42,866 bases of DNA, from the NCBI RefSeq assembly GCF_024102715.1, contig NZ_JAGFJM010000080.1, positions 1 to 42,866 on the forward strand, written 5' to 3'. Below the pieces are notes generated by a model that made no database searches, was not told the origin of the DNA, and saw nothing but the letters and a program-made list of their open reading frames with translations. The DNA is from Nitrosomonas communis. Lineage in GTDB: Bacteria; Pseudomonadota; Gammaproteobacteria; Burkholderiales; Nitrosomonadaceae. This document shows positions 24,251 to 37,249 of this stretch, in pieces. Each line of letters begins with the position of its first letter. The stretch's first letter is position 1. The position numbers and the translations under genes were made by a program.

Positions 24251-27200
24251 TCACACTCCTGATTGCGCACTAAAATAGGGTGAAGGCAAGGTCGGGTAAA
24301 CCCGGTAAATGTGCCGGAACACTTCCATCGCCTTTTCCTCCACATCCTCTTCTGCAAAGGCTTCTACCGGCAGTCCTGTGCGCTCATCCCAAAGATAATC
24401 CCGAATGGTTACCCGCACCGCGTCGCGGGTGGCTTCCTTATCACGCCAATGATCTACTCGCAGCTTTTCTGCCTTCAGCTTTTCGAGCAACTGTACCGCG
24501 ACCAGCTTGATACGCTTGATCTCTGCCGGTTTGAGATCTGGTTTTCTGAGCAGATCAAAAATCGCGAGGGATTCTTCGTCCAGCCCTTCACGCACTGCAT
24601 GCTGCGCTTCCTCGTCAAGCTCTTGAGCGAATTTGAACAAGGTCTCGAAGGTTTTTTCAATCGTTAGTCGGTCTTTCTCCCGATTGTATTCGGAAACGAT
24701 GTGTTCGTAGTGCTGTTGGAAGTCGGTGCGCAGTGGATTTTGCAGCAAGAGACGTTGTAATCGCTGCTCCACAGCCTCACGCAGGTTCTGTACGGTGGTG
24801 TTTTTTCTGGGGCTGCGCGCAAACTCCTTGCGCAGTCGTTCAAAATCGATCTTGCTGATATCGAACGGGGATGGATTGTATTTGCCACTCTTCGGTTTAA
24901 CTGCTATTGCATCCTCCACCACCGAATGCAATTGCCGGATGATATCGGCAATATCTGCCTGCTCGCGATCCTGCTGCAGGCTCCTGTAGACGATATTGAT
25001 CGCATCCCGCTCGGGCCGGTGCGTATTTGCTCCTGAGATATTGATACAGGCCTTGAACTTCTTGAACACTTCACGGCACATCACTTCAAAGCGCTTGCGG
25101 CTTTCGTCGTTTTCGTTGACAGCTTCCTTGCAAGCCATGATCGCGGCGTTCTGGGCAAAGCCGGTCTGGTGCATGACGTTCTCCAATGATGCACGGCGGT
25201 CTGCGAGGAATGCGCGTACCAGGGAAATCGCTTCAGCCAGATCCGCCAGCAATTCCTCGTTAGGACGGGCCGGATCGGTTTCGCTGTTATCGCCTTCAGA
25301 CTGCGTGCCGGCAAAGGTCGCAAGCGCCTGGCGCAGATGCTTGAGGATACCGCAGTAATCCACGATCAGGCCGTTGTTCTTGCCTTCATGCACGCGATTG
25401 GCACGGGCGATGGCCTGCATCAGGGTGTGCGCCTTGAGCGGTTTGTCGAGGTAAAGCGTGGACAGGCTCGGCACATCAAAACCGGTCAGCCACATGGCGC
25501 AGACGATGGCCACACGCAGCGGGTGCTCTTCTGCCTTGAAAGCGTCATCCAATGCCATGTTTTGCAGGTGACGGTACTCAGGCTTCATGCGCATCGCTGC
25601 GGGCAGATCGATGCCTTCCTTCATCAGTTTACGGTGCGGAATAATGTCCAACCCCCATCTGCGAAACTTGTCCACTTCACCTTGTTCTTCACTCACCACC
25701 ACTGCCATGCGGGTTTCGCGCATCCAGTCGAGCTGACGTTGACGGAATAGTTCGTCCTGATCGTCGCTGACCGCTGCCAGCTCCTTCTCCAGCTCGCGAA
25801 TGCGTTCTTGCCAGTAAAACGCAATCAAGCGATGCATGCGCACGCACGTCACCTTGTCGATGCACACCAGCATCGCCTTGCCGGTCTCCCATGCAGTTGA
25901 GTAATGCTGCACGAAATCCCTGGCGACCTGATCGAGACGCTTGCCCGCAGTGATGATGTGATAATCGCGCTTGAGCTCTTTCTCCAGCCGCTGTTCGACA
26001 TCGATATCATCGGTCTCTAATTGCTCCAGCTTTTCCGCAATGCGTTCATTGAGGTCACCAATTGCCACCCCCAGCTTCTCCCCACGCGCATCGTAATAGA
26101 GTGGCACCGTAGCGCGGTCATCTACCGCGCGCTGGAAGTCATAGGTGGAAACATATTCGCCGAATACCCGACGCGTGATTTCGTCATCCTTGAACAGCGG
26201 TGTGCCGGTAAAGCCGAGGTAACTCGCATGAGGTAAGGCATTGCGCAGGTTGAGCGCCAGCGTGCCATATTGGGTGCGGTGCGCCTCGTCGGTGATGACG
26301 ATGATATCATCGCGAAGTGAAATAGCCATTTCGCGACCCTCACCCCCAACCCCTCTCCCATTGGGAGAGGGTGGCTGCAGGACGGGTGAGGGCGTCGCTT
26401 TTAGCGATGTGAATTTTTGTATCAGTGAAAAAATGTGAGTCTTGTGCTGGCTCAGCAATTCATTCAGGTGCTGGCCGCTGGCAGCCCGGCAGGGTTCACG
26501 GTCATGATCCACCACGCCGCAGTGGGCAAAGGTCTTGTAAATCTGGCTATCGAGATCATCACGGTCGGTCAGTATCAGAAAAGTGAAGTTGCCGCCCAGC
26601 TTGCGGTGCACCTTGCGCGTGAACATCACCATCGAATAGCTCTTGCCTGAACCCTGGGTGTGCCAGAAGACACCTAGACGACTTAAGCTATCTGTCGTCC
26701 CTCCCTCACCCCCAACCCCTCTCCCCGAGGGCGAAGGGGATTGAAGCCTTGAGTTGCTCATTACTTGTTGCCCCTCTCCCGATGGGAGAGGCTGGGTGAG
26801 GGTCGCGGCTCGGTAGCGCCGAGCTACCGCCGCGATAGCACGGTTGACACCAAGAAATTGATGGTTGCGGGCAAGGATCTTTCTGGGCTCACCCGCAGAT
26901 TCATCGAACAGAATGAAATTTTCCACCAGATCGAGCAGGTTACGGCGGTCGCATACGCCCTTGAGCAGTGTTTCCATATCCACCGCACCGGGCACCTCCT
27001 CGGCCAGGCGCTTCCATTCGCTGAAATGCTCCCAGCGGCTGGTGATAGAGCCGATCCTGGCCTGTGCGCCATTGCCGAACAGGACGAAGGCGTTATGGTG
27101 AAACAGGTGCGGCACGGTGTCGCGGTAATCAGAAAAATTCTGCTCAAAGGCGGTTCTCAGGTTGCGATGAATGTTTTTGCACTCGATGAACAGCAGCGGC

Positions 27201-27667
27201 AAGCCGTTGACGAAACCGATGATGTCCGCCCGCCGCCGGTAGAGATCCCCCTTCACCCACAGCTCGCGCACACAAAGAAATTCGTTGTTATCGGGATGAT
27301 CGAAATCCAGCACCCGTAGCCGCTGCCGTTCCAGTTCGCCTTGTCGATTGCGAAAGGAGACCTGTACGCCGTCGCGGAGTTGTTCATACTTCTCGCGATT
27401 GGTCGCTACCAAAGTTTGTGAGGCTAGGGTAGCGTTAATCTGCCGCACGGCATCGTCATAGGCTGCATCCGGCAGGCCCGGATTCAATGTCATCAGCCTA
27501 GCGCGCAGCGGGCGCGTCAGCACCACCTCGCGTTCGGAAGCGCGGCCCAGCAGGCTGTCCGGCCCGAAATCCTCATGATTATGGGTATACACTGATTGCC
27601 AACCGAGCTGCTGTGCCAAATAGTCGGCGGTGGTCTGCTGCACCAGCGTGTCTTCGGTATAAGCCAT
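24251..27667 (-). CDS. hsdR: Type I restriction enzyme, R subunit (HsdR)
   Basis: The 1138-residue motor and nuclease of a type I restriction system. The PD-(D/E)xK nuclease is near the N-terminus (RRRADIIGF D148; FIECK E162/K164). The SF2 motor has Walker A HTQGSGKS (336-343), DEAH (460-463), GFTGTPLF and the later motif LMQAIARANRV. A long helical C-terminus binds the other subunits. Two in-frame insertions stand out: residues about 287-326, six residues before the Walker A block, and about 424-446, just before the DEAH strand. Both are encoded by palindromic repeats and are Pro/Gly/Ser-rich. It is the last gene of the minus-strand island, 25 bases after vapC. The motifs are intact, so activity is possible. 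Confidence 0.93.
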   Translation of the reverse strand: MAYTEDTLVQQTTADYLAQQLGWQSVYTHNHEDFGPDSLLGRASEREVVLTRPLRARLMTLNPGLPDAAYDDAVRQINATLASQTLVATNREKYEQLRDGVQVSFRNRQGELERQRLRVLDFDHPDNNEFLCVRELWVKGDLYRRRADIIGFVNGLPLLFIECKNIHRNLRTAFEQNFSDYRDTVPHLFHHNAFVLFGNGAQARIGSITSRWEHFSEWKRLAEEVPGAVDMETLLKGVCDRRNLLDLVENFILFDESAGEPRKILARNHQFLGVNRAIAAVARRYRAATLTQPLPSGEGQQVMSNSRLQSPSPSGRGVGGEGGTTDSLSRLGVFWHTQGSGKSYSMVMFTRKVHRKLGGNFTFLILTDRDDLDSQIYKTFAHCGVVDHDREPCRAASGQHLNELLSQHKTHIFSLIQKFTSLKATPSPVLQPPSPNGRGVGGEGREMAISLRDDIIVITDEAHRTQYGTLALNLRNALPHASYLGFTGTPLFKDDEITRRVFGEYVSTYDFQRAVDDRATVPLYYDARGEKLGVAIGDLNERIAEKLEQLETDDIDVEQRLEKELKRDYHIITAGKRLDQVARDFVQHYSTAWETGKAMLVCIDKVTCVRMHRLIAFYWQERIRELEKELAAVSDDQDELFRQRQLDWMRETRMAVVVSEEQGEVDKFRRWGLDIIPHRKLMKEGIDLPAAMRMKPEYRHLQNMALDDAFKAEEHPLRVAIVCAMWLTGFDVPSLSTLYLDKPLKAHTLMQAIARANRVHEGKNNGLIVDYCGILKHLRQALATFAGTQSEGDNSETDPARPNEELLADLAEAISLVRAFLADRRASLENVMHQTGFAQNAAIMACKEAVNENDESRKRFEVMCREVFKKFKACINISGANTHRPERDAINIVYRSLQQDREQADIADIIRQLHSVVEDAIAVKPKSGKYNPSPFDISKIDFERLRKEFARSPRKNTTVQNLREAVEQRLQRLLLQNPLRTDFQQHYEHIVSEYNREKDRLTIEKTFETLFKFAQELDEEAQHAVREGLDEESLAIFDLLRKPDLKPAEIKRIKLVAVQLLEKLKAEKLRVDHWRDKEATRDAVRVTIRDYLWDERTGLPVEAFAEEDVEEKAMEVFRHIYRVYPTLPSPYFSAQSGV
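26337..26392. repeat. palindromic element inside hsdR, copy near DEAH box
   Basis: Outer arms ccctcaccc (26337-26345) and gggtgaggg (26384-26392) enclose a perfect hairpin ccctctccc/gggagaggg (26351-26359, 26363-26371, 3-base loop). Translated in frame on the minus strand as part of residues 424-446 of HsdR. Confidence 0.85.
26703..26802. repeat. double palindromic element inside hsdR, copy near Walker A
   Basis: Outer arms ccctcaccc (26703-26711) and gggtgaggg (26794-26802) enclose an imperfect hairpin and a perfect 8-bp one (26773-26780, 26784-26791). It looks like two fused units of the family at 26337. Translated as part of residues 287-326 of HsdR. Confidence 0.82.
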
Positions 27668-27692: not shown

Positions 27693-28061
27693 CTATATTT
27701 TGCTATAGGCCAGCGCCAGCGATTCGGCTACCCCGCACAGCCGCTTGTCGCGCGTCCAAAGCTGAACGCCATCAGCCAGCACCACGGCAGCCAGCAAATG
27801 GGCGTCCACATAGCCGATACCCTTGCCCATCAAAGCATGGCGCTCGATGAAGTACAGCACTTCATCGTCGGTAGCCACCTTGATACTAGGCATGTCTTTC
27901 AACAGGGAAAGCACCTCTGCACGCTGTTTTAAGTTGCCACAAGCCAGCTCACCCAGTACAAAGGGATGGATCAGCACCTGTAAGGAATTAAGCAGCACGA
28001 CAAGTTCTGCATCCCCGCTTCGCAGGTGATCGACCCATACCGAACTATCCACCAAAATCAT
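27693..28061 (-). CDS. vapC: VapC-type PIN-domain toxin
   Basis: A 122-residue PIN ribonuclease. The first acidic motif is MILVDSSVWVDHL (D5), the mid Glu is in FVLGELACGNLK, and the C-terminal acidic site is in GYVDAHLLAAVVL with TRDKRL. The start overlaps the vapB stop by 4 bases. It lies inside the type I operon, 25 bases before hsdR, and probably stabilises the island. Confidence 0.9.
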   Translation of the reverse strand: MILVDSSVWVDHLRSGDAELVVLLNSLQVLIHPFVLGELACGNLKQRAEVLSLLKDMPSIKVATDDEVLYFIERHALMGKGIGYVDAHLLAAVVLADGVQLWTRDKRLCGVAESLALAYSKI

Positions 28062-28330: not shown

Positions 28331-28621
28331 TCATAGCTCTATCGCTTCCTTTAATACTTGCTCGCGGATATGACGGTTCAATTCATGTTCGGGGATCAGC
28401 TCCACCCGGCGATGGAGTAAATCTGCCAACCGCTCAGTTAGCGGGATGCGCTGCTTAAACAGATCGTAACCCCGTGGAAAATCCACCAGAAAATCGACAT
28501 CACTGTCGGATTGCTCTTCGCCCCGGGCGACAGAACCAAACACGCGAATGCGTCGTGCGCCGTACTGACTACACAGTGCCATGATGACATCTTTTTGGCT
28601 GCGCAATTTATCTAATAACAT
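28331..28621 (-). CDS. MNT-type nucleotidyltransferase without HepT partner
   Basis: A 96-residue minimal nucleotidyltransferase with a complete GSx10DxD motif (GSVARGEEQSDSDVD) and the following DFLVDFPRGYDLF segment. Such proteins normally pair with a HEPN toxin (HepT), but the next gene is vapB and no HEPN gene is adjacent. It sits 108 bases after the Argonaute gene. It may be an orphan antitoxin or modify another protein of the island. A gagag ribosome site precedes the ATG. Confidence 0.85.
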   Translation of the reverse strand: MLLDKLRSQKDVIMALCSQYGARRIRVFGSVARGEEQSDSDVDFLVDFPRGYDLFKQRIPLTERLADLLHRRVELIPEHELNRHIREQVLKEAIEL

Positions 28622-28729: not shown

Positions 28730-30154
28730 CTACATAAAAAATCTATAATCATAGACATCGTTCTTGATCTCAGGTGTTAGTTTGACTACTTCAGCAAAGA
28801 GGTGTGAATAGCCAATAGTCACAGGCATCGTCTTGTACAGTGTATTGTTATTCCAATCAACTTTTGTAAGAGCGAGAATGCTCGCGCAGGTGTCATGCCA
28901 TCCTCCCTCACCAGAAAAGCGGCGCAGGATTATCGGAGCGGGAAGCGGTTTCAGAGCAGCTTCCTTAAAAACCGGTTTATTTGTGTTTTGTTGATTGACG
29001 TTTAATACACTGCCTTGTGTCCATAATAGACATTCCGAACTTGTTAAAGGTTGATATAGACCGCGATCTATCGGGTAACCGGCAGGAGTTGTGCTCTTAT
29101 TGGTGCCTTGTGGGCCATCAACTTTAAGACCATACCAGTTTGTATTCCGTATAATTTGAACAAGCTCGACTTCAGTTTTACTGCCGAAGGCGTCGAGCGT
29201 GCCTTGAATTTCTTCCTCTGTGAAATGCGTTGATTTGTGGACGAATATTTTGCGAGGAATTCGACCGTTATGACTATTCTGGTATAGGTGCAAGCTTTTT
29301 GAGAGAACCGATTGCATTTCCTGATAGCTGAGATATGGATTACCTTTCCGATCGGTTGTATATTCTCGTGTATCATAGGCAATAAACTCAAAACCGGTGC
29401 CGTCTGGATCAAAGACCTGGCTGCAACAAGTTGTGTAATCATTTCCTTCCGACTGCTTCTTGATAGCATAGCTCAGGCCAATATAGGCTTCGTCCTTGTC
29501 CCATTCCGCAAGCTTCCATGGGATACCGCCAGCCTTTGCATAAAGGGCAACACTGATGCCCCACATTACATTTGCACGGCAATTACGGGTAAAAGCCGTT
29601 TCGTTGATTATTTGTATTGGTAGATTGTGTAAGGCAGTTTTTGCTTTGATCCTATCATGCAGATTGAAACCTTCATACTCGAAACACTGCTTCCAGTTCT
29701 GCGGTAAATAAATGAGAACCACATCAAAGTTATTCTTCTGCCTTAGCAGATTGGTCATCGACTGGAAAATGTTCTCAGAGAGAACAGTCCCATTTCTTGA
29801 ATCAGCAAGCACGTCACACTCTTTAGGCATAGCGCATTTAAGTACTTCTGTTGGCGGAACCAATGGAGCGCGAAACACGGTTTCAAACCCAGGATATTGA
29901 ATATAGTAATTAAGGGCTTCTTTCGCTACGGCAGCATTGCTGAGTTCTGATACAAGACTGTCTAGTTTGCCCATATATGTTGCTGGTGCCAGATAGGCCA
30001 ATCTCACGTGGTGGAGCAGACCTAAACCAGCGCTGTACGGACCATACCGTACGAGACCACGAAGTGGATGTGTGTCTGTTTTGCTTTCCTGAAACAAGAG
30101 ATGAGGTTCTGGCAAGATGGAATATGCAGGAAGACTAGAAAGTTTAGCGTTCAT
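28730..30154 (-). CDS. Short prokaryotic Argonaute (MID-PIWI), SPARSA subunit
   Basis: A short pAgo of 474 residues with MID and PIWI domains only. The MID-like region (about 140-215) contains [20 protein letters not shown] and [16 protein letters not shown], with the Lys and Gln expected to hold the guide 5' phosphate. In PIWI, the strand that holds the first catalytic Asp reads AYIGLSYAI, and the second site reads [12 protein letters not shown], so the catalytic Asp residues are missing: it binds but should not cut. I chose ATG 30154, which overlaps the SIR2-APAZ stop by 11 bases; an upstream ATG at 30235 would add 27 residues inside that gene. In known SPARSA pairs the guide-loaded pAgo senses invading DNA and switches on the SIR2 NADase. 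Confidence 0.88.
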
Positions 30155-31904
30155 GGCCACACTTCCGGCTGTATGCAGTTCGGGTTCCAATCTTGAATTC
30201 CGCGCTGTATTCAGTATCCTGAAAACAGGATACATTGACTGTATCTCCAGATCCTACTTTGCCGAGCAATATTTCAATCCACATATCTAAAAGCTGATAG
30301 GATTGCTTGTTATATCGTTTCAGACATCGCTGACGCAGAAAGCTGCGTGCTTCCTGTCTTTTTGAGAGTGGCTTGATCCAGATGTCCGGCCTAAGCATAA
30401 CCCATAAATTTCCACCACGTTCTTCTAAATGGATTGAAGCACTTTCCGCCCAAGTTACATCCTTCAATTCTGGTACGTTTCCTGTGATATCACCAAGCTC
30501 ATTCCGCATTCGTGAAAATAGCTTGTCATTTGCAGCTAAATTTTTTACTACGGCATAATATGTTTTGTCTTTGCTACGACGCAGAAACAGCGGTTTACTT
30601 TGACAAAGAGCTGTAGCAAGTGCCTCTTCGAAAAAGGCTCTTATGATGGTAGATTCAGATGTGAGCTTTAACCCTTCCTCAATGTCATAAGATTTAATCG
30701 TTCTAACTTTATTTGCAGCAAGTAATTTAACGATTTCTTTGCTATTTCCCCAGAACAATATTTTGTCAGTATAAGTTAGAACAGCATTTGGCGATATTTC
30801 AATAATTTTTTTCTTGATATCTCCAAATGTGATAGAGTCGTTTAATTCAACCATGCCACATCGAAGTGGAAGCATAAGTACAGGCAGTGCATTGGTACGT
30901 AGGATTGGATACTGCTTGCCCGGTGCAGGAAGTGGAATAGAAAAATTTGTAGCACGTGCTGTTCTAATTTTGTTATCAAGTGCTTGAGGCTTACCTTCTA
31001 CTTGACGCCATATTTTTGAGAGCATTTCATCGAAAGTTCCGATTTCAATAACGTGTGCGTCCACGCTTTTCTTCTTTGCATCTGCGATAAGTTCCCACAC
31101 CCCATCTTCTACACTGGTTGTTTTTGGGGTTGCCCAGAACAATCCATATGGAAACGCATTGTTTTGATTAATTGCTTCACGAAACATCGTCATAACATTC
31201 CTATCACGACCACTATAGCCTGATACCACTAGTCCATATCTTGTTGTAGCTGCCAGAAAACATTTCTGAATTTCTCTATCGTTGTTTTGCAAATCTTCTG
31301 GTAAGTTCTTGATGCTCCGGTAGCGAAAATCACCATGGATTTTTGCATAAAGTGGGTATATATCTTTATTTAAAGCATCCAATGCAGCATAAGAGCCTTC
31401 CAAATGATAGGTTGACAGGTTTTTGCTGGTGACTTCTGCAAAAGCGTTTTCTATAACTTCGTCAAAGTTTGTCGTGTAGACGATTCTTGCTTTACCCATC
31501 GCCATTAAGCCAGCTAATATGCGGTGGCCTATATTCAGGGAAATTTTGTCGCTTGAAAGAGCCTCATGGATATATTGTTGCTGGGCTTGATAGTCATTAC
31601 CAAACATTAAATCAAAATAAAATGAATATTCTTCTGGACTCCAGCGAGCCGGAAATCCTCTACTATCCATGTATGTTTGAATCTTATGCTTTATGGCATT
31701 GTTGTTAATGTCGTGTAATTGCAAATCTTGATTTTCATGCCGACAGTAATAGCGACGCTTTAAATCCCAGATAATATCGATTGCAGTAGGTAGACCTGCT
31801 GAACGTGAAGTACCTGCACCTAGGAACCACATTAGATAAGAGGCGTTTTGAACATAGTGTTGTAAGAATTTGCTTGCTGAAATTTGATTGATCTCATTGC
31901 TCAT
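30144..31904 (-). CDS. SIR2-APAZ NADase subunit of a SPARSA short-Argonaute system
   Basis: A 586-residue effector. The N-terminal SIR2 domain has the NAD-binding [11 protein letters not shown] (29-39), TTNFDEVIE (N146, D148), catalytic His190 in YAKIHGD and GYSGRD (229-234). The C-terminal half (about 330-586) fits an APAZ domain, which mimics the N/L1/L2 parts missing from short pAgos and binds the adjacent Argonaute. In characterised SIR2-APAZ/Ago pairs, plasmid or phage recognition triggers NAD depletion and cell death. The start overlaps the hsdS stop (ATGA at 31901-31904) and the end overlaps the pAgo start. This stretch is visibly more AT-rich than hsdR or hsdM. Confidence 0.9.
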
Positions 31905-33100
31905 ACCGCTAGCGCTCCATTCATTAAACGTGGTAACAGCAAGTCTCTCGCTTGTATAAGCTTACGTGTTTCTGTAGAAAGGATGTCTATCTGCTTAAGT
32001 ATCGGTTTTGTATGCTCAGTAAATGTTTGAATTAGATTCCTTTCGGGAGCTACAAAGGGTATAAGCTTGAATGTGTCGCGGATGATAGCATCAAACACTG
32101 CGCCCACCGCTCGGCTGCGGAAATGCTCAACGCCATCAATGAGTGCGAAATAGAGGTAATACTGATTGAGGGGAGGTTTTGCGATTAATGCGTAACACGA
32201 TTGATTCATAGCCATCGTAGTCTGGGCGAGATTGATCTTTCCTACCGTTCCACGTGCCGTAATAAACACAGTGTCTTTGGGGTAAAGTTTACTATTGCAG
32301 TTCTTAATCCCCAGATCAGTCAAATGCTTTTCTGTTACAAAAACGTAAGCATAATCTGTTGTGTCTTTTGGCGTAAAAAATGGAATATCTCCATTCCAGT
32401 ATTCCGGTACATTTGTTTTTGGTGTTCCTCCACTGAGAATATCCATTACCTCAAATGCTGTTTTCCTCTCCCAACCCTCCGGCACGCCATCGATGATTTT
32501 GGTGTGTTCGTGGCCGGGGAAGCGGAGGTGGACGAACCATTCCTTGTAGAGCAGCCGTGCCGCCTGTTCCAGCAACTGTATCCGCCGCCGGTTGTTTTCG
32601 ATCAGGTCGTCGTAGGCGGAGAGAATGGAGGCGATCCTCTTTTGCTCGCTCACATTTGGGATCGGAAACTCAATTGAAAGCAGTTTTTCTTGACTGAGGT
32701 TGTCTTGAGCAGCTCCTTGTGTGAATTGCTTAACACGCCTTTTGATTGTCGCATCGAACAGGTACTTTACGAAGCGAGCATCAGCTTTCTTTTCATCGGC
32801 AATGAAGCCAATAACACTATCTGGGAAGCAAGCATCTATTCCGAGTATTGCGGTATCGGCGATGTTGGCAGCGATTGTAATGCAAAGCGTTCCTGCAGGC
32901 CAAAGCTTGCTTTGCTGAAGACCAGCATCGTTGTAAGTCTGTTTATACTCAGTTATATAGAGGCCGGCGTGCTTAACGTCGCTGGTCTGTATAAAAGGAT
33001 AGGGTCCACCATAGAGGTGAGCGGCATCACGTGGGCGGTGTCGAGAACGACCGCGTGAAAGGTACCCAAGTTGATCCAACCTCTGTGGCATCCAACTCAT
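31901..33100 (-). CDS. hsdS: Type I restriction enzyme, specificity subunit (HsdS)
   Basis: The 399-residue DNA-recognition subunit. Two target-recognition domains (about 1-150 and 205-350) are each followed by a conserved coiled-coil: SEQKRIASILSAYDDLIENN in the centre and FTEHTKPILKQIDILSTETR at the end. The second half begins PEGWERKTAFEVMDILSGGT, typical of HsdS. The start ATGA overlaps the stop of a 45-codon ORF that copies the hsdM tail; its own stop overlaps the SIR2-APAZ start. TRD sequences differ quickly, so the target site cannot be read. Confidence 0.93.
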   Translation of the reverse strand: MSWMPQRLDQLGYLSRGRSRHRPRDAAHLYGGPYPFIQTSDVKHAGLYITEYKQTYNDAGLQQSKLWPAGTLCITIAANIADTAILGIDACFPDSVIGFIADEKKADARFVKYLFDATIKRRVKQFTQGAAQDNLSQEKLLSIEFPIPNVSEQKRIASILSAYDDLIENNRRRIQLLEQAARLLYKEWFVHLRFPGHEHTKIIDGVPEGWERKTAFEVMDILSGGTPKTNVPEYWNGDIPFFTPKDTTDYAYVFVTEKHLTDLGIKNCNSKLYPKDTVFITARGTVGKINLAQTTMAMNQSCYALIAKPPLNQYYLYFALIDGVEHFRSRAVGAVFDAIIRDTFKLIPFVAPERNLIQTFTEHTKPILKQIDILSTETRKLIQARDLLLPRLMNGALAV

Positions 33101-33234
33101 TTCCCCAACTCCTCAAAATTATTTTTGATGGTTGTGGCGAGTTGAATCACCTCGACATTCAGATCTTCCAGTCCAACAATGATGTCAGCCTCCCTTGCAC
33201 AACTAGCGAAACAGCCTGTTTCACAATTTCTCAT
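33097..33234 (-). CDS. 45-aa ORF repeating the HsdM C-terminus
   Basis: ATG at 33234, overlapping the AlbA_2 gene stop, to TGA at 33099-33097, overlapping the hsdS start. The last 30 residues, GLEDLNVEVIQLATTIKNNF then EELGK, match the end of HsdM in this window (ELEDLNTEAVQLAATIKKNF then EELGI). The first 15 residues (RNCETGCFASCAREAD) contain three Cys and have no match there. It is either a leftover of an older hsdM whose body was replaced, or a mini-gene that keeps translational coupling into hsdS. No other function can be claimed. Confidence 0.65.
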   Translation of the reverse strand: MRNCETGCFASCAREADIIVGLEDLNVEVIQLATTIKNNFEELGK

Positions 33235-34661
33235 ACTCTATCCCCCAGCGCATTTTTCCCTTTTTCGGTCAGGCGATACTTCTGCAGGCGGCTTTGGGGT
33301 TTGTTGGGAATGGTGCGCTCGATGAAGCCTGCTTCCAGCAAAGGGTTGAGATAATTACTCTGAAAGGTTTTCCAGTGTTTCAGGCCGAGCATCTCCATGA
33401 TCTCTCTGGCGGAACGCGGTTCCCGGCAGAACTCACCGACTTGTGCGGTGACTTGTGCGGTGACTTGTGCGATGACTTGTGCTCCTGACTGTGGATGTGG
33501 AACTTCCGCTGTTTTGATCATTTCAGCTAACGGAAAAATAAAACGCACGCGCAGGCCCAGTTCGACGATGGATGGGGTGGGAAAACCCGCCGCTGCGGTT
33601 TCCCGGAAGATACGAGGGACTCCCGATCCCCATTGTTCGATCAGTTTCAATTCCCTGAATACACGGGCGATCACGGGATTGCGGATTTTGGAAACACCCT
33701 GGCGCATGTCTGCCACCGTCATGCCCGGTGGCAGAATGCCTGGGTTTTCTATTTCGATGCGGTCGTCGAAGAAAGCAACCCGAACAGGTCCGCCGCGCTG
33801 AGACCAGTCAGCATGGACCAGGGCATTGATGGCCGCTTCGCGCAGGGCTTCCAGAGGAATGCTCCAGATATCCCGTCGCCGTACTTCGGAAAAATCCGCG
33901 CCACGCATGGCGTGTTTTTTGAGAAAAAGCATGATGCTGTCCACCAGTACCGATAGGGGTTCCTCCAGCTCGATATGGTCAAAGATCCTGGCCTTGTCTG
34001 TGCCGATGAACCGGCCGCATTGCACCCAGCAATCGGGGAATTGCGCAACCCGGTTACGCCCGAAGAGGAGCACGCCGCCCCGGGTCGGCACGCTTTTGCC
34101 CTGTTCCTTAACCAGCAGTCTCAGGGTGAGCAGCGCCTGCTCATCGATTTCGCGAATACCGGCAAAGGCGCGTTTGATCGCGTCGATCGCGAGATCATCC
34201 ATGGAGAGTTGCGGCATGGGCAGTTCATCAAACGAGACTCCCTCAACGGACCGGCGCAGTTCGCCGATCAGCTCCCGGTCGGCCTGGCGGTTGGTGGAAC
34301 CGAGCCGGACATACACCCCGCTTTCCGGCCCCTCGGAACGTAGGTAGTGGGGACGGGAATTGCTCAGGAAAATCTCGATCACCAGCAGGGTTTTGCCGTC
34401 GACCGTGGTCATTTCGACATTGGGTACCAGGCGGGGGCTGATGGCGTCGGCGATCAGGTTGCAGAGCCGTTCTTCCTCATCCAGCGGATTGTCGATCCCG
34501 ACTGGCTCCCGTGTCTTGTCTGCCACGCCAATGATGATCCTGCCGCCGGCAGTATTGGCAAAGGCCACCAGCGTCTTGAGGAGGTTGCGCGGGGAGGAGA
34601 GATCCCGTTTGAACTCCAGAGTCTTGCCTTCGTCGGCCTTGAGCAGTTCGGCGATGCTCAT
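33231..34661 (-). CDS. AlbA_2/Schlafen-like ATP-binding protein within hsd operon
   Basis: A 476-residue protein. The N-terminal AlbA_2 (Schlafen-like) nucleic-acid domain has LEFKRDLSSPRNLLKTLVAF and GGRIIIGVADK (about 8-130). A RecG-related HATPase_c_4 module follows with LREAAINALVHADWSQRGG (273-291) and IRNPVIARVFRELKLIEQWG. A winged helix ends it (about 412-476). An Ala-Gln-Val repeat at 394-408 is encoded by 12-base tandem repeats. It starts inside the hsdM stop (ATGA) and ends in another ATGA with the hsdM-tail ORF. Such genes are common guests in type I operons; the role may be regulatory, but none is established here. Confidence 0.83.
   Translation of the reverse strand: MSIAELLKADEGKTLEFKRDLSSPRNLLKTLVAFANTAGGRIIIGVADKTREPVGIDNPLDEEERLCNLIADAISPRLVPNVEMTTVDGKTLLVIEIFLSNSRPHYLRSEGPESGVYVRLGSTNRQADRELIGELRRSVEGVSFDELPMPQLSMDDLAIDAIKRAFAGIREIDEQALLTLRLLVKEQGKSVPTRGGVLLFGRNRVAQFPDCWVQCGRFIGTDKARIFDHIELEEPLSVLVDSIMLFLKKHAMRGADFSEVRRRDIWSIPLEALREAAINALVHADWSQRGGPVRVAFFDDRIEIENPGILPPGMTVADMRQGVSKIRNPVIARVFRELKLIEQWGSGVPRIFRETAAAGFPTPSIVELGLRVRFIFPLAEMIKTAEVPHPQSGAQVIAQVTAQVTAQVGEFCREPRSAREIMEMLGLKHWKTFQSNYLNPLLEAGFIERTIPNKPQSRLQKYRLTEKGKNALGDRV
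33438..33485. repeat. four 12-bp tandem repeats in the AlbA_2 gene
   Basis: Units of gacttgtgcggt at 33438, 33450, 33462 and 33474, the last two slightly diverged. They encode the Ala-Gln-Val-x repeat on the minus strand. Unit changes keep the frame (12 = 4 codons), so copy number can vary linker length. Confidence 0.85.
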
Positions 34662-37249
34662 ATCCCCAGCTCCTCGAAGTTCTTCTTGATGGTCGCAGCC
34701 AGTTGCACGGCCTCGGTGTTCAGGTCCTCCAATTCGACGTGAATTTCGCGCAGGGCCTCTTCGAAATCAAAGTCTTCATCGAGTTCTTCAGGTGCCACGC
34801 CGACATAGCGGCCGGGGGTAAGACTCCAGTCATTGGCTGCGATTTCTTGAAGCGTTACCAGTTTGACCAGTCCTTGCACATCGCGCAGTTCAGCCTCGGG
34901 AAAGCGTTCGGCGAGCCAGCGGGCCTGCTTCCAGAAATAGCGCACCTGCTTGAGCTGTTCCACAGCCTGGGCGCGAGCCTTATCGGCGGCCTTGCGGGCG
35001 CGGGTAATGTCGCGATTGGCCCAGGCATCGCTGTCGCGGGCTTCACACTCATTCTCGCAGGTGTCGATTAGGCGGGTAGCGAGTTTATAGATCAGGTCAG
35101 TTTGCATGATCAGATCGCGACTCGCTTCAGCCAAGGGTGCAAGGATATCTACGGCATGGCTGAGCGTCTTGGCTGCATCGGAAGCTGAGGTATTGTCGGC
35201 GTCTGATTGTCGGGTTACGCCCTGCGGGCTAACCCAACCACCATTTTTCTCGATATGTTGACGGAATTGTTCGATATCCTGTTCGAACAGTATGCTCTCC
35301 TTCTCCAGTTCTTGCAGCACTTCCGCCTGCGGGCCGGTTTCAGGCTGGTTGTTCAGGAAAGGCGACATCGTGCTGCGCAATGCGCTCAGTGCTTCAGTAT
35401 AAGCGTGTAATGGACGCACGACGTGCCCCGGTTCATCTTTTAGCTCAAAGCAGGCGTGCGCTTGTTCGACCGTGTTGCTGAGGTATTGCGCGAGCAGTTG
35501 CAGGTAACGCTCAGTTTCACCCCTATAGAGCCAGACGATGGCGAGCAGATTCTGCTGCTGTTCGGGGGAAAAGTCGTAGATTTTGCGCGTGACCTTGCGG
35601 TAGATGTTGCGTGCATCAATCATCAAGACATTGCCTTTTTGATTATAGGCAATGGCTCCCTCACCCCTGGCCCCTCTCCGAGAGGGAGAGGGGAGCTGCT
35701 CAGCAATTTTTTGCAGGGTTTGTTCAGGGAATTCGAGCAATTCATTATTGGCGATACGGATTACGTTTATTCCATGTGATTGTAAATAAGCATCACGTTT
35801 ACGGTCTTTATCCTTTCGATCGTCGTGAACGGGACCATCCAGCTCTAGGGCAATACGTGCTTCGTGGCAGTAAAAATCGAGAATGTAATCGCCAGCCTGA
35901 TGTTGCCGGCGAAACTTGAGACCCAGGAAGCGGCGATCACGCACCAATTCCCAGAATATCTCCTCCGCTGGTGTCTGCTTCTTGCGTAGTTCCCGCGCAC
36001 GTTCAACCAGTCCGCTGAAATCGTATCCTCCTCGATAATGATTCCCTTCTCCCGCTGGGAGAAGGGTTGGGGATGAGGGTCGATCGGGCTTGCCCCGATC
36101 AATAAACCATAGTTCACAAGGCACAGTACGCGTGTAAAAGAAATTGGAGCGAATGGCGATCATGATGTCCACCTCGCCTGTTTCGACCAGTTTCTGCCTG
36201 ACCTTGGCTTCGCCGCCCCCTGCACTGGAAGCCTGTGAGGACATGACGAAACCGGCACGGCCTTTGTCGTTCAGATAGCTGTAGAAGTAACTGATCCACA
36301 CATAATTGCCGTTGCTGACTTTGTCCTTTTTGTTGATGCCGGGCAGACCGAATGGCAGGCGCGGGTCGCGCTTGATCTTGTCGGCGTCGATCTCGTCCAC
36401 GTTGAACGGCGGATTGGCCATGACATAATCGGCACGACCGACCAGTTCATGCGGATCTTCGTAGTAGGTGATGGCCTTCTGGATGTCGCCTTCCAGGCCG
36501 TGTACCGCCAGGTTCATCTTGGCCAGGCGCAGGGTGGTGGCGTTTTTCTCCAGGCCGCGGAAGGTGAGTTTCTCCGTCGGGCTTTGCCCATGCTCCTCGA
36601 CAATGCGTGCGCTTTGCACGAACATGCCGCCAGAGCCGCAGGCGGGATCGAGCACCGTACCCTGTTTCGGGTCGAGTACATGGGCGATCAACGACACCAG
36701 TGAAATGGGCGTGAAAAACTCGCCGCCGTCGTGCGCTTTCTGGTCGGCGAACTGGGTGAGGAAGTATTCGTAGATGCGGCCAAACACGTCGCCGGATACT
36801 TTTTTCAGCTCGTCGGGATTGAGCGTGCGCAGCAACTGACCGAGCACCTGGTTATCCAGTTCCTGATATTCGCTCTTGGGCAGCACGCCGCGCAGACTTT
36901 CGTAATCGGCTTCAATCGATTCCATTGCCTCGATGATGGCATGTGCACGGTCTGCGCTGTCAGGCAGAGCCACAAGCGTGTCGAACTGCGCTTTGGGGTG
37001 CAGAAAGATGGCGCTTTGCTGGGAAAAATCCTCCTTGGTCAGCGGGCGCGTCTTGCCACCACGGCTGGGCAGGTTGGGTTCGATCTTTTCCTTGACCGTC
37101 AGATAGCGGCTGTAGGCATGGCGCAGGAATACCAGGCCCATGACAGGCAGAAAATATTCGTTGCTGGCGTAGTTGGAATTGGCACGCAGCGTATCGGCTG
37201 CAGTCCAGAGACGTTTTTCGATGGCTTCAATGTGTTCGAGTTGACGCAT
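34658..37249 (-). CDS. hsdM: Type I restriction enzyme, methylase subunit (HsdM) with inserted DUF559 nuclease domain
   Basis: An 863-residue N6-adenine methyltransferase. N-terminal helical domain, SAM-binding motif I TVLDPACGSGGMF (198-210) and catalytic motif NPPF (279-282) are intact, and a long helical C-terminus ends VQLAATIKKNFEELGI. After CELWFIDRGKP (residue 388) the normal sequence is interrupted by about 145 residues and resumes as GNVLMIDARNIYRKVTRKI (from about 539). The insert is a DUF559 domain flanked by repeat-encoded Pro/Gly/Ser tracts. Without it the chain would be about 720 residues, normal for this HsdM type. It is the first gene of the island. A candidate promoter lies 46 bases upstream. 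Confidence 0.93.
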   Translation of the reverse strand: MRQLEHIEAIEKRLWTAADTLRANSNYASNEYFLPVMGLVFLRHAYSRYLTVKEKIEPNLPSRGGKTRPLTKEDFSQQSAIFLHPKAQFDTLVALPDSADRAHAIIEAMESIEADYESLRGVLPKSEYQELDNQVLGQLLRTLNPDELKKVSGDVFGRIYEYFLTQFADQKAHDGGEFFTPISLVSLIAHVLDPKQGTVLDPACGSGGMFVQSARIVEEHGQSPTEKLTFRGLEKNATTLRLAKMNLAVHGLEGDIQKAITYYEDPHELVGRADYVMANPPFNVDEIDADKIKRDPRLPFGLPGINKKDKVSNGNYVWISYFYSYLNDKGRAGFVMSSQASSAGGGEAKVRQKLVETGEVDIMIAIRSNFFYTRTVPCELWFIDRGKPDRPSSPTLLPAGEGNHYRGGYDFSGLVERARELRKKQTPAEEIFWELVRDRRFLGLKFRRQHQAGDYILDFYCHEARIALELDGPVHDDRKDKDRKRDAYLQSHGINVIRIANNELLEFPEQTLQKIAEQLPSPSRRGARGEGAIAYNQKGNVLMIDARNIYRKVTRKIYDFSPEQQQNLLAIVWLYRGETERYLQLLAQYLSNTVEQAHACFELKDEPGHVVRPLHAYTEALSALRSTMSPFLNNQPETGPQAEVLQELEKESILFEQDIEQFRQHIEKNGGWVSPQGVTRQSDADNTSASDAAKTLSHAVDILAPLAEASRDLIMQTDLIYKLATRLIDTCENECEARDSDAWANRDITRARKAADKARAQAVEQLKQVRYFWKQARWLAERFPEAELRDVQGLVKLVTLQEIAANDWSLTPGRYVGVAPEELDEDFDFEEALREIHVELEDLNTEAVQLAATIKKNFEELGI
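35658..36079 (-). mobile_element. DUF559 (Vsr-like) nuclease cassette bounded by palindromes, in frame within hsdM
   Basis: The 422-bp insert has outer arms ccctcaccc (35658-35666) and ggatgaggg (36071-36079). Each end carries a hairpin: cccctctcc/ggagagggg (35671-35679, 35685-35693) and cccttctccc/gggagaaggg (36044-36053, 36057-36066). Between them, on the minus strand, HsdM residues about 409-519 form a DUF559 domain: LVERARELRKKQTPAEEIFW, FLGLKFRRQHQAGDYILDFY and ARIALELDGPVHDD, with D458, E469 and D471 as likely active-site acids. DUF559 proteins are Vsr/PD-(D/E)xK-like endonucleases usually encoded alone. The same repeat family occurs twice in hsdR. Mobility is inferred. Confidence 0.75.

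Follow-up and report, generated by a model that had tools for sequence, protein, structure and literature searches.

A SPARSA short-Argonaute pair in the hsdS-hsdR gap of a type I restriction locus of Nitrosomonas communis

The locus and its hsdS/SIR2-APAZ junction

We examined by sequence comparison a 42,866-nucleotide stretch of Nitrosomonas communis DNA (contig NZ_JAGFJM010000080.1 of assembly GCF_024102715.1, hereafter the window), in which the two genes of a SPARSA system, encoding a SIR2-APAZ protein and a short prokaryotic Argonaute (pAgo), lie within a type I restriction locus. The genes follow one another on the minus strand in the order hsdM, AlbA/HATPase gene, hsdS, SIR2-APAZ, short pAgo, MNT-type nucleotidyltransferase gene, VapBC-like pair and hsdR (Table 1). 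A preliminary description had placed the SPARSA pair between hsdS and hsdR on one strand, with the SIR2-APAZ start overlapping the hsdS stop by four bases. Open reading frames (ORFs) and family assignments bear this out, with the addition that hsdR does not directly follow pAgo, an interval of about 1.06 kb holding the MNT gene and the toxin-antitoxin pair. Unrelated defence genes on the same strand thus occupy the hsdS-hsdR gap in the window and, as described below, in its relatives.

The restriction genes encode HsdM, an HsdS with two target recognition domains (TRDs) and an HsdR with nuclease and helicase domains, as expected of a type I system. In the SPARSA pair, SIR2 is fused to APAZ, the catalytic Asn and His are present, and the adjacent short pAgo matches the solved partner; both proteins align almost from end to end with the Geobacter SPARSA chains (phmmer scores of 805 and 812 bits). 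The two residues are equivalent to the N142 and H186 dyad mutated in the Geobacter study, in whose consulted part this SPARSA requires guide RNA and target DNA (PMC10781750). Among 84 aligned SIR2-APAZ rows, the Asn is retained in 77 (7 gaps) and the His in 78 (5 gaps, 1 Arg). The pAgo ORF as listed could open at 30235; the ATG at 30154 agrees with the solved relative.

Table 1. Features of the composite locus, in order of transcription (window coordinates).
Feature	Coordinates	Strand	Remark
hsdM (N6 methylase; motifs DPACGSG and NPPF)	34658..37249	minus	in-frame DUF559 insert at about residues 390-537
SLFN_AlbA_2 - HATPase_c_4 - Fic-like_C gene	33231..34661	minus	between hsdM and hsdS; 4-base overlap with hsdM
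hsdS, conserved central region flanked by two TRDs	31901..33100	minus	
hsdS 3' end: GGAG 31918-31915, ATGA stop/start overlap 31904-31901	31901..31918	minus	read from sequence
SIR2-APAZ	30144..31904	minus	Asn146/His190 equivalent to N142/H186 of the Geobacter protein
Short pAgo (MID-PIWI)	28730..30154	minus	start overlaps SIR2-APAZ stop by 11 bases
MNT-type nucleotidyltransferase (PADLOC PDC-S09)	28331..28621	minus	
VapB-like antitoxin, 65 aa	28058..28255	minus	by sequence reading only, without family-library scan
PIN-domain toxin (VapC-like)	27693..28061	minus	
hsdR, final gene of the locus	24251..27667	minus	two in-frame palindromic inserts

The stop codon of hsdS and the start codon of SIR2-APAZ share the tetranucleotide ATGA. 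No earlier in-frame ATG, GTG or TTG occurs in the SIR2-APAZ ORF, and the next in-frame ATG (M25) falls within the SIR2 core; therefore, translation most likely starts at the overlap. The codons of the conserved hsdS C-terminus contain, 10 bases 5' of this start, a GGAG run that may act as a ribosome site. Directly upstream of SIR2-APAZ we find no promoter-like site, in a scan that was weak (7 sites against 11.1 in shuffled sequences; terminator-like sites in the same scan, 10 against 10.5 expected).

Recurrence among SPARSA relatives

In order to see how often this arrangement occurs, we compared the best 80 of at least 521 confirmed matches found by scanning GTDB genomes with a pAgo alignment. 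Of these, 63 were usable, one lacking a SIR2-APAZ ORF and 16 having 1.2 kb or less of upstream sequence. Type I labels come from profiles grown on the window proteins, plus Pfam for 20 upstream neighbours, so that some genes were perhaps missed. We observe hsdS directly before SIR2-APAZ, with a 4-base overlap (ATGA or GTGA), in 4/63 relatives, which belong to Fermentibacteraceae (L008), "Deltaproteobacteria" (L009), Binatota (L011) and Chlorobiaceae (L023). SIR2-APAZ directly follows hsdR in four others (L025, L038, L062, L071) and lies elsewhere within a type I operon in two (L060, L080). In total, 10/63 are inside or adjoining recognised type I genes, and the remaining 53 are outside and not directly beside them.

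Bacterial genomes carry a few thousand genes. Because of this number, and because Methylase_S is present in 84/150 sampled genomes of the window's phylum, a chance adjacency to hsdS in 4/63 relatives is very unlikely, bearing in mind that the four are not all independent and that defence genes cluster anyway. The recurrence of the junction in four other genomes also rules out a chimeric assembly or an arrangement unique to this strain. Two further candidates for hsdS linkage, L010 and L048, were rejected since Pfam gave DUF3427 and BsuBI/PstI instead.

Among kin, SIR2-APAZ has matches in 2/101 relatives (the window's own genome and one at 29% identity) and in 4/399 genomes of the order, counting that of the window. 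For the phyla of L011 (1/198), L009 (1/282) and L008 (1/42), none was found beyond the starting genome. Viral contigs gave nine loci at 24-38% identity, apart from one 68% fragment, and no hsd genes were seen in the neighbourhoods of three plasmid matches (existing annotation and profiles). Other defence genes adjoin SPARSA in several relatives: HamA and a helicase in L007 (4140-8433), BsuBI/PstI restriction with a helicase gene downstream in L048 (5306-16035), GmrSD in L019 (765-2609) and AbiEii in L030 (7301-8179).

One explanation is passive clustering in a defence island, in which the genes moved together, SPARSA is transcribed from a promoter of its own and the overlap plays no part in expression. 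This would fit the adjacency of SPARSA elsewhere to BsuBI/PstI, GmrSD, AbiEii, DUF3427 and HamA/helicase genes, as well as the base composition of the window, where the SPARSA genes have a GC content of 40-44%, compared to 55-58% for hsdM, the AlbA gene and hsdR. However, the GC contrast recurs in L011, L023 and L015, and hsdS TRD2 in the window is likewise AT-rich. Since SPARSA genes are lower in GC than the compared neighbours in 5/6 measured loci (the exception being L006), low GC may be a trait of these genes, and the contrast in the window alone is not proof of recent arrival. Furthermore, the overlap is identical in the window, L008, L009 and L011 even though their SIR2-APAZ proteins are just 63-67% identical to that of the window, and the weak scan found no promoter-like site between hsdS and SIR2-APAZ. 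We therefore consider clustering alone unlikely, and the earlier suggestion that SIR2-APAZ translation is tied to that of hsdS probably holds.

A second explanation is a guard relationship, close to the earlier proposal that a failure of restriction sets off NAD depletion: the HsdM/S/R complex would silence SPARSA, and a phage block of restriction would free it. There is a precedent in PrrC, which is encoded with a type I enzyme, silenced by it and activated by a phage anti-restriction peptide, and which the consulted part of the same source describes as invariably linked to type Ic systems (PMC2610378). SPARSA shows no such invariable linkage, given the 10/63 linked relatives. In L008, the hsdS-SIR2-pAgo set adjoins only a broken hsdM remnant, and no hsdR was recognised in the 21 kb examined; another hsdM-like gene elsewhere in that genome (39% identity) could act in trans. 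The TRDs of the window and L011 are also unrelated, although SPARSA is common to both. We regard such a guard as improbable, and the restriction-failure trigger loses its footing with it. Even less probable is a hand-off in which restriction by HsdR yields DNA ends or single strands that SPARSA uses as guides or targets. Co-localisation and likely co-expression are all that speak for it, and SPARSA relatives, most of them lacking recognised type I neighbours, retain the catalytic residues.

Cargo exchange and history of the hsdS-hsdR gap

HsdR of the window matched 39/398 genomes of the phylum, and HsdM 18/399 of the order. We surveyed the gap in 13 (HsdR) and 6 (HsdM) of the best other loci, 17 of which have hsdS and hsdR together. 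The gap is empty in six (L119, L120, L121, L144, L148, L149) and occupied by other genes in eleven. The cargo comprises Fic and HicB-like genes in L118 (L116 was assigned through DNA similarity to L118), Zeta-toxin-like and HicB-like genes in L117, an SMC/AAA ATPase in L122, YhcG in L123, L125 and L126, a CBASS-like pair of SMODS synthetase and S_4TM effector in L128 (10795-12596), AAA_13 with a HATPase gene in L145, AAA_15 and RNA ligase in L147, and a gene without family assignment in L127.

Eight loci share an LLPR-L-type hsdS end with a start overlap directly behind it, namely the window, L008, L009, L011, L116, L117, L118 and L144. What follows this end is SIR2-APAZ in four, Fic or Fic-like DNA in two, a Zeta-toxin-like gene in one and hsdR itself in one, and GGAG or GGGGA lies 8-10 bases before the start in all eight (counted by eye). 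Because the same overlap junction leads to Fic, Zeta-toxin-like or hsdR genes in related loci, the predicted coupling to hsdS seems to belong to the slot and not to SPARSA itself, so that the special link between hsdS and SPARSA supposed at the outset is not supported by the comparison.

The pair L117 and L118 illustrates how the cargo may change. These loci show 95% similarity from hsdM into the first hsdS bases, 92% in a 184-base part of the central region, 95% in the final 66 hsdS bases and 96% from within the HicB-like gene through hsdR. They differ in cargo and in TRD1 and TRD2, which have 25% and 14% protein identity. This mosaic fits recombination at conserved anchors, the hsdS 3' end being one, a general claim that we infer from a single pair. 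We tentatively hypothesize that hsdS in this type I family has a third exchangeable cassette, its conserved last ~66 bases combining recombination anchor, ribosome site and stop/start overlap, such that SPARSA, Fic, Zeta-toxin-like and other suicide modules might be swapped like TRDs and be translated together with hsdS.

A single clade of nine rows in the pAgo tree (SH-aLRT 97) takes in the window, L008, L009 and L011 and leaves L023 outside; for the other five rows (L005, L006, L007, L010, L065) no hsdS was seen directly upstream, L005, L007 and L010 having less than 1 kb upstream. The window and L011 pair in this tree at 85 and are sisters in the HsdR and HsdM trees (100/99), which were built from 20 chosen rows each, omitting L008 and L009 (HsdM fragments only). 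Their proteins share 82% and 56% identity in two segments of HsdM, 71% in HsdR, 74% in pAgo and 63% in SIR2-APAZ. Their HsdS proteins share 87% identity in the central region, compared to 15% in TRD1 and 19% in TRD2. The AlbA/HATPase gene has a 74% identical stretch in L009, where it forms with hsdS a single 863-aa open frame (148-2739), as opposed to the separate genes of the window. The empty-slot locus L144 groups weakly in both trees, with the window and L011 for HsdM (81/77) and with the Fic/Zeta loci for HsdR (82/84). The Chlorobiaceae copy (L023) belongs to an unrelated type I family; in the HsdM/HsdR analysis, 0% of 200 bootstrap trees recovered a single origin that takes it in. Read most simply, these data suggest a transfer of the whole composite locus between phyla, with a change of specificity and retention of the SPARSA pair, and a separate uptake of SPARSA at the same place by an unrelated type I family.

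The remaining features of the island are as follows. Its flanks are ordinary, with peroxiredoxin and ferritin-like genes at one end and an abhydrolase/DCC1 gene and an amidase at the opposite end. The MNT gene has no HEPN-sized ORF beside it and adjoins the VapBC-like pair; it is possibly a remnant of another cargo module. The DUF559 insert of hsdM (about 35634-36085, in frame) is bounded by GC-rich palindromes, one found by search and the other by reading, and is absent from hsdM of L011 and L144; PF04480 has one further match in the same genome. A GC-rich palindromic repeat occurs in three in-frame copies, two in hsdR (26337-26360 and 26703-26726, one of them shortly before the Walker A motif and the other before the DEAH box) and one in hsdM (36056-36079). 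With up to 3 mismatches allowed, the 3-Mb genome has no further copy, and the HsdR proteins of L011, L117 and L144 lack the inserts.

Interpretation and comparison with known systems

We propose, with a probability of about two in three, that an ordinary SPARSA pair is carried as cargo between hsdS and hsdR, coupled through the hsdS end and acting independently of the restriction enzyme. The hsdS 3' end would serve as a socket, with a purine-rich ribosome site in its last codons and a stop overlapping the start of the next gene, and the first cargo gene would be translated in step with hsdS. The type I enzyme would cut unmodified DNA, and pAgo would sense invader DNA by its guide, after which the SIR2 domain would deplete NAD+. 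The two defences would thereby be layered and share expression, SPARSA needing no signal from the restriction enzyme. What remains of the preliminary description is the embedded pair and its probable translational coupling, without the SPARSA-specific link and the trigger by failed restriction.

Several observations weigh against this proposal. Overlaps of 4 bases are very common between the genes of an operon, and the Shine-Dalgarno-like run arises from conserved codons and may be incidental. The sampling of best matches described above also counts here. On the 84-row pAgo tree, hsdS linkage takes four changes when unlabelled rows are scored as lacking it (all 11 type I-linked rows take nine, other rows scored likewise), and the pAgos closest along the tree, those of L005 and L006, were not seen in type I operons; therefore, the linkage between hsdS and SPARSA is loose. 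Some type I parts have decayed, the L011 hsdS frame being interrupted by a stop 20 codons short of its end and the L008 hsdM being a broken remnant, and the HsdM and HsdR inserts leave the activity of the window's predicted restriction enzyme in question.

The closest protein relatives are those of Geobacter sulfurreducens SPARSA (PDB 8in8, 8k87 and others), alike in the two proteins, the nearly full-length match and the conserved Asn and His. The window pair is embedded between hsdS and hsdR. The same slot holds a toxic module, DarTG2, in the RptR island of enteropathogenic E. coli, whose authors call the hsdS-hsdR site a potential recombination hotspot (PMC12255303, as far as consulted). The effector differs there, and the rptR repressor gene comes first, whereas the 85 bases separating the abhydrolase gene from hsdM in the window hold no ORF of at least 80 aa. 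TgvAB is a two-gene defence between hsdR and hsdS in the type I operon of Vibrio cholerae VPI-2, and its protection is independent of HsdR restriction activity (PMC11411939, consulted in part); it is a type IV restriction system, unlike the NADase and pAgo seen here. PrrC and RloC also act as suicide effectors, and type I or III loci always accompany PrrC but seldom RloC. Both are tRNA nucleases, however, and the type I enzyme keeps PrrC silent, a control of which we see no sign in the window (PMC2610378, in the part consulted). PrrC is thus a counter-example, in which the type I link is functional.

An HsdS orthogroup (og_11) and AlbA_2 (og_37) were listed among the DNA-binding proteins of pAgo operons by Ryazansky et al. 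2018 (PMC6299218), the consulted portion of which does not describe the arrangement, the overlap or the exchange of cargo. In the open-licence literature searched, we recognised no description of SPARSA in the hsdS-hsdR gap. Other modules are already known to be embedded in type I operons (PrrC, DarTG2, TgvAB), and the new idea is that of a socket and its cassettes. A guide-directed, NAD-depleting Argonaute system now joins these modules, in a composite that spans distant phyla. If true, the socket would account for the build-up of abortive-infection genes in restriction loci with no need for new promoters, and would supply a sequence rule for locating further embedded modules.

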